DNA from: Planifilum fulgidum
GTDB taxonomy: Bacteria; Bacillota; Bacilli; Thermoactinomycetales; DSM-44946
Direction of reading: 5' to 3'
Length of the DNA: 48,260 nucleotides
Assembly: GCF_900113175.1 (NCBI RefSeq)
Contig: NZ_FOOK01000027.1
Location: 1 to 48,260, forward strand
Below the pieces are notes generated by a model. That model worked only from the letters and a program-made list of their open reading frames with translations, was not told where the DNA came from and ran no database searches. A program made the translations under genes and the position numbers. Position 1 is the stretch's first letter. Every line of letters starts with the position of its first letter. Below are positions 29,253 to 42,874 of the stretch, one piece after another.

Positions 29253-29283
29253 TTGACCCTCACCTTGGCGTAAGGGTTTATCA
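29253..29283 (+). promoter_or_regulatory. MerR-type promoter and operator of the efflux operon
   Basis: TTGACC (29253-29258) and TTATCA (29278-29283) are 19 bases apart, the lengthened spacer typical of MerR-activated promoters. ACCCTCAC and GTAAGGGT (29256-29277) form an inverted repeat (7 of 8 matching) that occupies the spacer. This fits control by the MerR protein encoded 37 bases downstream. Confidence 0.75.
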
Positions 29284-29319
29284 TACGATTGCGGAATCCC
29301 TTCGAAGGGAGAGAAACCG

Positions 29320-30105
29320 ATGTACCGGGTCGGAGAGCTTTCCCGGATCACCAACGTGAGCATACGGACCCTCCATTATTACGATGAAATCGGCCTGTTG
29401 AAACCGTCAAGGATATCGGAAGCGGGCTACCGATACTACACCAAGGATGACCTCGTCAAACTGCAGCAAATCATCGTCCTCAAAAAGTTGGGATTCAAAC
29501 TTTGCCAAATAAAAGAAATGACGCAGGTGACCGCGGACAAGGCCGAGAAAGCGCAGCGGTGGATGGAAATCTTCGATATGGAAATCGAGAAAATCCGGGA
29601 AGAAAAGCGAAGGCTGGAACTTCTGGAACGAAGCCTCCACGTCATCCGCCATTCCCTTGAACTGACGGGAGATGTTTCCAACGACGAGATCCTGGCCATT
29701 ATTCAGTCGATCCAGCTGAATGACGCGGATAGCTTTCTATCCCGCCACTTTACGGAAGAAGAACAGGAAATCCTGCTTCGGCAATTGCCGGATCTGACAG
29801 CTCGCGATGAAAAGACGGAAAAATGGATCAAGCTGCTGAAAAAAATCCGCCAAACCAAGAGTGAACCGATCGACTCCCCCGTTTCGCAACGGCTGGCGGA
29901 GGAAATCATGCGTTTCATCCGCGAGCATCTGCAAATGGAAGATTCACTGATCGACAAATATTGGGAAAAGATCAAGCCGGAGGACGGACAGCCGGAAAAG
30001 GTGATCGGCCTGGATAAGGAAACCATGGAGTACATCGAGCAAATTCTCGACTGGTATCAGAAACACGAAGAGGGGAGCAAAGGCCATGGGAAAGAAATCC
30101 GTTAG
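29320..30105 (+). CDS. MerR-family regulator with a long C-terminal domain
   Basis: Likely ligand-responsive activator of the following efflux genes. The DNA-binding domain is at residues 1-70 (YRVGELSRITNVSIRTLHYY, EIGLLKPSRI, GYRYYTKDDL), then a dimerisation coiled coil to about 115. A helical domain from 125 to 255, acidic and rich in aromatic residues, resembles the drug-binding domains of TipA/Mta-like regulators. At 261 residues it is as long as those proteins. GGGAGAG precedes ATG. Its gene overlaps the first SMR gene by 20 bases, so the three are one operon. The inducer is unknown. Confidence 0.9.
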   Translation: MYRVGELSRITNVSIRTLHYYDEIGLLKPSRISEAGYRYYTKDDLVKLQQIIVLKKLGFKLCQIKEMTQVTADKAEKAQRWMEIFDMEIEKIREEKRRLELLERSLHVIRHSLELTGDVSNDEILAIIQSIQLNDADSFLSRHFTEEEQEILLRQLPDLTARDEKTEKWIKLLKKIRQTKSEPIDSPVSQRLAEEIMRFIREHLQMEDSLIDKYWEKIKPEDGQPEKVIGLDKETMEYIEQILDWYQKHEEGSKGHGKEIR

Positions 30106-30787
30106 GGCGTCGGCAAGATGGGACCTTTTCCTCTACCATCTGGTCCTCTTTGTCACCATGCACTGTGTGTTTGCCGCATTTTTCGGCGTCCAGCCGCTGT
30201 CGCAGATCGGCAGTGAATCCTATTTGGACCACATTCAAGAGAACTTTTTGAATCACGGCGTCAATATCTACCGGAACCCATCGGCCAATGAGATCAGCAA
30301 CATCTGGAAGTCCATTCTCCTCATTCACCTCATTTTGGACATCATCGAAACCATCTTTCCCCGGAAGAAAAAAACACCCGACCGACATCTTCAAAAAGAC
30401 GAGGGAATTGTTGAAAAGGCCGGCGAGAAGGCGGCGACGGACAAAAAACCGGATAAAAATCCGGGGGCGGCATGGGTTTATCTCCTGCTCGCCGGCTTGC
30501 TGGAAATCATCTGGGCCACTGCTCTGAAGATGGATATGCTGGGGGGACCGCTGATCCTTGCGCTGATCCTCAGCTTTGACTTGCTGATAAAAGCCGTAAG
30601 GCGGTTGGGGGTCGGCACCGCCTATGCCGTGTTCACGGGAATCGGAACCGCGGGACTTGTCCTGGTGGATATCGCATTTTTCAGGGAGACATGGGACTTT
30701 CTGAAGGTGTTTTTCATCTCGCTGCTCGTCCTTTTTATCATCGGATTGAAATGGACGTCCGACAGTCGGGGAGGTTCTCACCCATGA
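30086..30787 (+). CDS. SMR-family efflux protein with an extra N-terminal membrane domain
   Basis: Residues 128-230 form a four-helix SMR transporter (WVYLLLAGLLEIIWATALK with the essential E140, then GVGTAYAVFTGIGTAGLVLV). Ahead of it lies an unusual 125-residue extension: two hydrophobic segments (about 15-34 and 75-91) around a polar loop, then a lysine-rich linker. Ordinary SMR proteins have only about 105-110 residues. SMR proteins exchange cationic drugs or guanidinium for protons. This one is paired with the next gene, as in EbrAB or YkkCD. The tryptophan three residues after E140 is also found in guanidinium exporters; specificity is not proven. Confidence 0.85.
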   Translation: MGKKSVRASARWDLFLYHLVLFVTMHCVFAAFFGVQPLSQIGSESYLDHIQENFLNHGVNIYRNPSANEISNIWKSILLIHLILDIIETIFPRKKKTPDRHLQKDEGIVEKAGEKAATDKKPDKNPGAAWVYLLLAGLLEIIWATALKMDMLGGPLILALILSFDLLIKAVRRLGVGTAYAVFTGIGTAGLVLVDIAFFRETWDFLKVFFISLLVLFIIGLKWTSDSRGGSHP

Positions 30788-31098
30788 GCTGGATCTGTTT
30801 GGTGCTGGCCGGCTTGACCGAAGTGGCCGGTGTCGTCGGCCTCAAAAAAGTATCTGAAAAAGGAAGTTGGTTCACGTATCTGCTGATGATCGGCGGTTTT
30901 CTCGTCAGCCTCACATTGCTGCGCGTATCCCTGGAAGCGATCCCGTTGTCCATCGCTTATGCCGTCTGGACGGGAATCGGAACGACGGTAGCGGCGGTGG
31001 TCGGCATCCTGTTCTTCCATGAATCGAAAAGCCCGGGACGCATCCTGTGCATGCTGGGGATCATCGCCTGCATCATCGGCCTGAGATGGATCGCGTAA
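30784..31098 (+). CDS. SMR-family efflux protein, second subunit
   Basis: A 104-residue four-helix SMR protein with essential E13 (LAGLTEVAGVVGLKKV) and the central SIAYAVWTGIGTTVAAVVGI. Its start overlaps the previous stop (ATGA), so the two subunits are made together and probably form a heterodimer. Normal length, with no extension. It ends the operon; a terminator follows at 31251. Confidence 0.92.
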   Translation: MSWICLVLAGLTEVAGVVGLKKVSEKGSWFTYLLMIGGFLVSLTLLRVSLEAIPLSIAYAVWTGIGTTVAAVVGILFFHESKSPGRILCMLGIIACIIGLRWIA

Positions 31099-31434: not shown

Positions 31435-32714
31435 TCACCCGGATTTCACCTCCGTCACTCCTGCGGCAATATCCTGCGGAACTTCCACTTTCAGATTCCG
31501 GATGGACCGGGACAAAAGCCCCAGCAGGGACATCGCAGCCACGACGATACCTCCGGCGATGAACGTCCAAGCCGGGCCAAAAGCGGCCACCGCCGTTCCG
31601 GCCAAAGCGAGACCGACGGGGATGGCGGAAAAGGATCCCAGGGAATCGACGCTGCTCACCCGTCCGAGAAGGTGCGAAGGCACGCGCTCCTGGAGCAGAG
31701 TGATCCAGACCACCCCGAAGCATTCCATCAGAAATCCGAGCAGGAAGGCCATGGCGATCAACACGGCAACGGTGGGAATCGCTCCAATGACCAGGGTGGC
31801 GACCCCCATCGCGAACAGCAACAGATACAGGGTGACGCCCGGCCGGGAAATCCTCTGGAAGCGGATGCTCCCCATGAACAGACCGCCCAACACCGCTCCC
31901 GCGCCATAGAGGGTCAACACCAGCCCCAGGATTCCCGCTCCGCCGTCCAACGTTTCCTTCACCAAAAAAAGGGCAGGGCCACATTGAACACCCCGGTCGT
32001 CGCCGCATTGACCAGCGCCGCCACCATGATGGTGATCCACAGCCAGGAAACGGAAAAGGTGTGCTGCAGCCCTTCGCGAATTTCCGACAGGTAGCTCCGG
32101 GAACCTTTCCCCGCCTCCTCTTTTCCCGCTTTCGGACGGTACCGGATCATCGCGATGGCCAACAGGGAGCCGGTCAGACAAAGGGCGTCGATGAGAAAAG
32201 TCATCGCCGCGCCGACCGTCTCCACCAGCACCGCCCCCAGCGCCGGACCCAGGATGACACCGATTTGCCGGCCGATTCCGTTCATCGAGTTGGCGGAAGC
32301 CCGCTTGTCGCGATCGACCAGCTCATGGATGATCACGGTGTAGGCCGGCTGGAAAAAGGCGTCCGCGATCCCGAAGAAGACATAAATGCACAGAACGGAC
32401 CAAAGCTCCACCTTACCAAGGAGCACCAAAGCGGCCAAGAGAACGTTCATCAACGCCCTCACGCCGTCCGACGCAAGGATCACCCCTTTGCGCGAAAACC
32501 GGTCCACCGTGGCGCCGGCAAACAAAGACACCAGAATATTGGGAATAAAAAAGGCCATAAACACAAGAGCCGTCGCCTGGGCGGAGTTGGTTTCGGTGAC
32601 GATCAACCAGACCAGGGCGACCCGGAAAATGTTGTCACCCAGGTGGGAAAGGGTGTGTCCAGTCCACAATAACGAAAAGTTTCGGTTCTTCAGCACCCTG
32701 ACCAGGCGGGGCAT
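31435..32714 (-). pseudogene. MFS efflux transporter split by a one-base frameshift
   Basis: Two minus-strand frames give one 12-helix major facilitator of the DHA3 (macrolide-efflux) type. From ATG 32714 the first half has GDNIFRVALVWLIV, ATVDRFSRKGVILASDGVRA (the loop 2-3 motif) and FFQPAYTVIIHELV, and stops at 31959 after ALPFFW. The second half resumes in another frame with FLVKETLDGGAGILGLVLTL and runs to 31435. The break is a run of seven T residues (31964-31970); eight would restore the frame. The gene is either disrupted, phase-variable or affected by a sequencing error. AGAGGTG lies eight bases before ATG. Confidence 0.8.
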
Positions 32715-32842
32715 ATACAACACACCTCTTTAACGAAAAAATAATGTTTTATGTAAGACAATTTTATTGTACGATGGTTTCAATTTTCTGTCAATCCCAA
32801 CCCTCCGCCCAAGCAAAACGAAGTGGAAAGCAAACACAGAAA

Positions 32843-42723: not shown

Positions 42724-42746
42724 CCGAACCCCTCCTCCTTTTGTTC

Positions 42747-42850
42747 AAAAAAAGCTCCCTCCGCAGGCGCGGAAGGAGCGAATGCGGTGCGGTAAGCGGT
42801 CGCACCAAAAGCGTTTGCCCCTTTCCGGCCTCACGGGACCGGATTAAAGG
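42747..42850 (-). promoter_or_regulatory. PyrR attenuator before pyrB
   Basis: On the minus strand the PyrR-binding loop (42819-42850: CCTTTAATCCGG, then TCCCGTGAGG, then CCGGAAAGGG) carries the UCC, GAGG and AAAGG elements of the family. It is followed by a terminator (GCTCCTTCCGC/GCGGAGGGAGC, then seven T, 42747-42779). UMP-bound PyrR stabilises the loop, blocks the antiterminator and lets the terminator form. Confidence 0.9.
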
Positions 42851-42874
42851 ATGCATCACTTGCCTATTTGCTTT

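Follow-up and report, generated by a model that had tools for sequence, protein, structure and literature searches.

Why should a subunit of an SMR exporter, a family that is the model of the smallest transporter, carry an additional membrane domain? The question is raised by a locus in a 48,260-nucleotide stretch of Planifilum fulgidum DNA, which was analysed as a whole and is termed the window. Coordinates are those of the window and refer to its forward strand unless otherwise indicated.

Parts of the fused gene

The fused gene (30086–30787), delimited by its open reading frame, by Pfam and by a check of start codons, encodes 233 amino acids from an ATG at 30086 to a stop codon at 30785–30787. 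A likely ribosome-binding site, GAGGGGAG, lies ahead of the ATG at 30070–30077. Residues 1–92 (30086–30361) form a predicted two-helix module, assigned through profile and hhalign links to a family of stand-alone membrane proteins. Residues 93–127 (30362–30466) are a K/R-rich linker recognized by charge count and alignment; it is predicted to be cytoplasmic and is poorly conserved. Residues 128–233 (30467–30784) constitute the SMR domain, subunit 1 of the pair, which is identified by PF00893, invariant columns and a structure match, and for which the K/R bias predicts an N-in orientation. Multi_Drug_Res (PF00893) is matched at residues 129–214 in Pfam with 69.2 bits (E 4.4e-19) against a cut-off of 23.7, and the SMR domain is complete. 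Residues 1–127 have no above-cut-off match in Pfam or NCBIfam.

With six hydrophobic segments, the whole protein exceeds the minimal SMR unit of four helices and ∼100 residues. The two segments of the extension are at 14–32 and 73–91 (Kyte-Doolittle). Both ends of the module are predicted to be inside, and the outer loop between the helices, of ∼40 residues, has one K/R and four D/E. The linker, counted over residues 92–128, has 11 K/R and seven D/E. The earlier note's description of an extra two-helix domain on the first SMR subunit is thus borne out, with about 127 residues, two hydrophobic segments and a K/R-rich linker ahead of the SMR part.

Compared with another species of the same genus (G002), amino acid identity is 84% in the two-helix part (residues 13–92), 80% in the linker and 91% in the SMR part. 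The corresponding dN/dS values, which rest on small numbers of changes, are 0.53, 1.28 and 0.25. The value for the two-helix part lies between those of the SMR part and the linker and, few as the changes are, would fit some constraint. Module residues H18, F22, H26, W74 and F91 are invariant in all five intact fused proteins. The linkers of the fused proteins are poorly conserved and very different in length.

The SMR pair and its MerR regulator

The second gene of the pair (30784–31098) encodes an SMR subunit of 104 amino acids (PF00893, 3.3e-24); its ATG and the end of the fused gene overlap, and its K/R bias predicts an N-out orientation. Over the core loops the bias is +2 in subunit 1 and −3 in subunit 2. 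The two are opposite, as in paired heterodimers, and in all 23 pairs compared subunit 1 is biased towards N-in and subunit 2 towards N-out. E140, Y180 and G185/G187 are invariant in five of five intact fused proteins and the landmark W143 is also present; in the alignment the partner subunit has the Glu and lacks the Trp. Sections of a review of the SMR family describe the roles of the central Glu, the Tyr switch and the GxG fulcrum, and state that paired SMRs occur in all four subtypes (PMC9574504).

Two forms of Gdx-Clo (E 2.3e-16 and 2.4e-16) are the sole matches among solved sequences at E up to 0.001. Over 98 residues (128–225) the model superimposes on Gdx-Clo 8vxu with a Z of 15.6 and an rmsd of 1.3; the matching rows of the structure comparison span residues 115–233, so the module is hardly covered. 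The best NCBIfam match is the SugE model PRK11431, which is not passed, with 56.1 bits for SMR1 and 70.7 bits for SMR2 against 126. As this best match is well below its cut-off, a Gdx subtype is likely, though not established. The central Glu, Tyr switch and GxG are shared with the SUG/Gdx clade, and the closest solved structure is Gdx-Clo. The window pair resembles Gdx-clade heterodimers, and guanidinium would be a candidate substrate.

The merR gene (29320–30105) encodes 261 amino acids (MerR_1, 7.2e-22, Pfam). Full-length homologues are found elsewhere, before fused and unfused SMR pairs and before genes of the stand-alone relatives of the module, here called stand-alone 2TM genes. The merR gene, the fused gene and the SMR2 gene overlap at their ends and are therefore read as one operon, merR-[2TM-SMR1]-SMR2, which is probably co-transcribed. 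A predicted MerR-type promoter/operator, TTGACC-N20-TATCAT with the dyad ACCCTCAC...GTAAGGGT, was located at 29253–29284 by pattern searches and comparison of related operons. The pattern, written after the sites had been inspected, has this sole match in the window and none in 100 window shuffles; with up to three mismatches allowed it is still the sole match in the whole genome, and the reversed control gives none. Long-spaced promoters are typical of MerR activators, and the window locus has both a regulator with the MerR DNA-binding domain and a promoter motif of the 19–20 bp spaced kind. A recognizable form of this promoter precedes merR in seven of seven merR-SMR operons, fused or not and the window included; those of genomes G333 and G079 deviate most. 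Ahead of the four MerR genes that accompany stand-alone 2TM genes, the promoter score gave no hit; a related core common to them, TTGAA...ACGT, can be made out only by eye.

The window MerR is similar to regulators of the MtaN/BmrR/TipA type in its MerR DNA-binding domain, with MtaN and TipA as the best solved matches, in its long-spaced promoter with a dyad and in the adjoining efflux genes. It differs in its C-terminal part, which has no above-cut-off Pfam match. TipAS is not found in the window protein at E≤1 (Pfam) and is hinted at, below cut-off, in two relatives (E 0.001 and 0.0023).

Two adjacent SMR genes of opposite charge bias are also found in YkkC/YkkD, which the window pair presumably resembles. 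The window pair differs from that kind in the extra N-terminal residues of the first subunit and in its control. YkkCD has a riboswitch, whereas the window operon has a MerR-type promoter, and Rfam at gathering thresholds detects no riboswitch there, e.g. of the guanidine type, and no element at 11 related loci. The sole Rfam match in the whole window is a PyrR binding site (RF00515) on the reverse strand at 42746–42854, with 55 bits against a gathering score of 54. YkkC and YkkD belong to the SUG clade, as stated in part of a paper on SMR evolution (PMC2716321). A second SMR pair of the same genome, on contig C5 (L031:5479-6143), is without the module.

That the added domain is linked to the MerR regulator, as the earlier note had suggested, holds in part. 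A window-type MerR precedes five of six fused genes vs two of 18 unfused pairs, although these rows are partly related. Apart from the window, it is full length before the fused genes of G002, Brevibacillus borstelensis (G164) and G079, and broken in Hazenella coriacea DSM 45707 (G014). A full-length MerR is also found directly upstream of the stand-alone relative in four of 106 loci. Against a strict link, a window-type MerR accompanies two unfused pairs (G333 and G380), and none turns up in the 8.5 kb read around the fused G008 gene. The window MerR type has two targets outside the fusions, the stand-alone 2TM gene (four loci) and the SMR pair (two loci), and these are the two parts that are joined in the fusion. 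A tree of 11 MerR proteins places those of the stand-alone 2TM operons in one group (97/93). The broken Hazenella MerR branches next to this group (90/96) and the others are on the far side; MerRs of fused operons are not one group (three changes).

On the reverse strand, an MFS-like efflux gene at 31435–32723 is split over two overlapping open reading frames in different frames (31959–32723 and 31435–32181) and therefore looks interrupted. By eye, its G002 counterpart may be interrupted too (L030 6587–7832).

The module and its stand-alone relatives

Searched for homologues, as the earlier note had proposed, the extension has both fused and stand-alone relatives; in 61 related genomes it is matched alone and also together with SMR. 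Outside the fusions, matches to the module fall in the C-terminal half of a membrane protein that stands alone. A profile of 11 module copies has matches in 21 of 42 genomes of the order and in 119 of 398 of the class, fused copies included, and by the same profile the genome of P. fulgidum has no second copy. When compared by hhalign, SMR-linked modules match six short-loop stand-alone C termini, including one member passing PF13239, at 97.6% probability (E 2.9e-12), and for the wider set of 11 the profile-profile comparison gives 99.4% (E 1.1e-21). H, W and FPKK-like positions are common to the module and the stand-alone proteins.

The window protein is not matched by PF13239, the Pfam 2TM domain, and a search of the genome at E≤1 likewise leaves its position unmatched. 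Among eight scanned stand-alone proteins, one short-loop protein passes (26.7 bits, cut-off 24.8), a second short-loop protein is below the cut-off with 20.1 bits and the remaining six are without a match; no NCBIfam model is passed by any of the seven that were scanned. When 41 genomes were searched with PF13239, which gives weak matches in most genomes and controls, four proved to have an above-cut-off match, and two of these four matches are genes of the stand-alone family. The window module is without a PF13239 match but is tied to the stand-alone proteins profile to profile, and it is therefore called, on sequence criteria, a long-loop, divergent relative of the Pfam 2TM domain. It differs from PF13239 and the stand-alone proteins in the ∼40-residue loop between its helices, and from the latter also in lacking the three preceding helices and in being joined to an SMR subunit.

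The stand-alone gene was studied at 106 loci (L021–L026, L028 and L106–L204), comprising ∼8 kb around each of 99 places, with 17 of the weakest places left out, and seven loci read earlier. Its own profile confirms the gene at all 106 loci, with open reading frames of 69–239 residues. Five membrane segments are predicted in 92 of the 100 proteins that have at least 170 residues.

Regulatory genes are frequent neighbours. A TetR-family gene is found within 600 bases upstream in 57 of 106 loci (52 on the opposite strand and five on the same strand) and a PadR gene upstream in three; together with the four MerR loci, a regulator of one of these kinds is close upstream in 64. The TetR and PadR profiles were built from motif-picked proteins of the same 106 loci, and Pfam confirms the kind for the regulators scanned (one PadR, two TetR and one MerR). 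A Toastrack/DUF4097 gene is found at two loci, in L022, where it is upstream of the stand-alone gene, and in G008, where it is upstream of the fused gene. In the latter locus (L027:-2 to 5476), which has no merR, an ABC transporter pair is seen by eye downstream of SMR2, and a two-component system is seen by eye beside the stand-alone gene in L024. A paper on the phage-shock envelope-stress network describes, in the portion available, HAAS-PadR systems with Toastrack or with uncharacterised 6TM, 4TM and 2TM domains (PMC11237479). Judged by its neighbour genes, the stand-alone protein seems to be a regulated component of the response to drugs or to envelope stress.

SMR pairs are found within about 4 kb of the stand-alone gene in two of 106 loci. 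In G024 (L147:3544-4883) the pair begins 28 bases after the stand-alone 2TM gene on the same strand, and in G161 it is on the opposite strand. A rough expectation, from a few SMR genes in genomes of ∼4–5 Mb, is ∼0.5 such neighbours. Two of 106 is not clearly above this, and therefore the proximity is no proof of linkage on its own and no enrichment is claimed.

No PDB sequence matches the module at E up to 1 (profile A1). In the AlphaFold model, for which the alignment had six rows, the module has a pLDDT near 50 and is weak, and a single-sequence model of one stand-alone relative is likewise weak (mean 54.9). As both models are weak, no docking is inferred from them.

Distribution, history and possible role of the fusion

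The fused gene occurs in at least six of 398 sampled genomes of the class, i.e. those of P. fulgidum (G000), G002, G008, G014, G164 and G079. The fused-protein profile was run on all 398 genomes and the best five candidates per genome were scored; the count is therefore a lower bound. Four of the 42 genomes of the order belong to the fused set, as do one of 26 in the genus of G164 (G380 left out) and one of three in the family of G079. Among 299 genomes sampled evenly from the phylum, at least one has the fusion, and among the best eight candidates per genome this is the P. fulgidum genome alone. G380 had appeared to be a seventh case, with a match from position 64 or 57, but its SMR1 proved to be an unfused gene in an over-long open reading frame overlapping merR, and it is therefore left out of the count. 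No plasmid record covers 80% or more of the fused protein, and none matches one stand-alone relative. Intact fusions are present in four genera of four families (G000/G002, G008, G164 and G079). The order merR, fused gene, SMR2 is common to the window, G002, G164 and G079. In H. coriacea the operon is decaying (L029:3354-5094), with stops in merR, the one stop codon of its fused gene in the linker and a frame shift in SMR2.

Trees leave the history of the fusion with two possible courses. In an SMR1 tree of 24 rows all six fused genes group, weakly (46/10; 47% of bootstraps), and one of 500 label shuffles is as low. On a tree built from all 37 module rows, three changes are required to account for the six SMR-linked copies. 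At least two of these are imposed by well-supported branches, although long branches meet there. With four long rows left out, five of the six group together (92/91), with G079 elsewhere on a long branch, and one clade of SMR-linked modules is not rejected (p-AU 0.184). By these trees, one fusion followed by transfer or loss and two fusions are both possible.

The operon is perhaps best explained, with moderate confidence, as a MerR-controlled SMR pair of the Gdx clade whose first subunit has gained a 2TM-related module, most likely as an accessory subunit. MerR would bind the long-spaced promoter and, on binding an effector that is probably a small or lipophilic cation, turn on its own gene and both pump genes. 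Subunit 1 (N-in) and subunit 2 (N-out) would form an antiparallel proton-coupled cation exporter. These two steps, the MerR switch and SMR export, follow from family knowledge and the anatomy of the operon; the step that involves the module is one we infer. The module would form a helical hairpin whose two ends are cytoplasmic and whose acidic loop of ∼40 residues is outside. Tethered to subunit 1 by the long charged linker, and by reason of the fusion present one-to-one with the pump, it may dock beside the pump or recruit a partner, and so tune export. Several observations weigh against an accessory subunit. Unfused SMR pairs are far commoner than fused ones and the same MerR type apparently drives two of them, the linker drifts and evolution is faster in the module than in the SMR part. 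The copy in Hazenella is in decay, the model of the module is weak and the SugE model is not passed. In addition, SMR pairs near the stand-alone gene are few and Rfam shows no element at the operon or the related loci.

A rival reading makes the module a passenger, that is, a chance fusion of two genes under the same type of regulator that was tolerated as the pump was undisturbed. The rarity of the fusion, the poorly conserved linkers of very different lengths, the module dN/dS above that of the SMR part, the decay in Hazenella and the two unfused pairs with the same MerR all point in this direction. This explanation is nevertheless somewhat unlikely. The fusion is intact in four genera of four families, five module residues are invariant in all intact proteins, the two-helix dN/dS is 0.53 and the reading frame is open in five of six fused genes.

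A membrane sensor, by which the module would report the envelope state or a bound drug to the pump or to MerR, is quite improbable. The acidic outer loop would suit such a role, as would the TetR, PadR and MerR genes close upstream of the stand-alone relatives and the single cases of a Toastrack/DUF4097 gene or a two-component system. However, a regulator gene next to a 2TM gene suggests that the latter is controlled, and not that its protein signals. In addition, Pfam finds no further cytoplasmic domain in the fused protein, and MerR proteins are soluble ligand sensors.

The earlier note had also suggested a topology anchor, in which the hairpin forces subunit 1 into the N-in orientation. The even number of helices and the K/R-rich linker agree with N-in. 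The core loops carry the same bias in fused and unfused pairs, however, subunit 1 averaging +2.2 both in the five fused and in the 18 unfused pairs, and subunit 2 averaging −3.6 and −4.3, respectively (the broken Hazenella pair and locus L008, a repeat of L027, are not counted). The extension is therefore not needed to set the topology, and an anchor is very improbable. Finally, a start artefact, with the true gene beginning near residue 126, has a very small probability and is, on the sequence evidence, already refuted: the bulk of the SMR homologues found do start near residue 128 of the fused reading frame, but the frame has no ATG, GTG or TTG between codon 84 and codon 138, which is within the first SMR helix, the annotated start has a good ribosome-binding site, and homologous extensions occur in other genera, where homologues all starting near residue 126 were what the earlier note had named as counter-evidence.

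The pump, the 2TM domain and the MerR regulator are all of known kinds, and what is new is their combination, a rare variant of a known pump. Among the matches listed, titles and abstracts mention no SMR-2TM fusion, in a literature outside which most subscription papers lie. The SMR family review and the evolution paper, in the sections available, mention no SMR subunit with an added membrane domain (PMC9574504; PMC2716321). The locus raises the question of whether 2TM proteins are in general dedicated accessory subunits of cation exporters, the free 5-TM forms acting in trans under the control of TetR, PadR or MerR and the fusion revealing the partnership. This proposal is tentative and rather doubtful. 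If true, the window locus would encode an SMR exporter that has its auxiliary subunit built in, and this subunit would tune or relay the activity of the exporter. Gene fusions often mark working partners, and the fusion is thus a lead on the role of the widespread, unstudied 2TM membrane proteins of Bacilli. It also provides a natural covalent handle on whether an accessory domain can tune SMR pumps.
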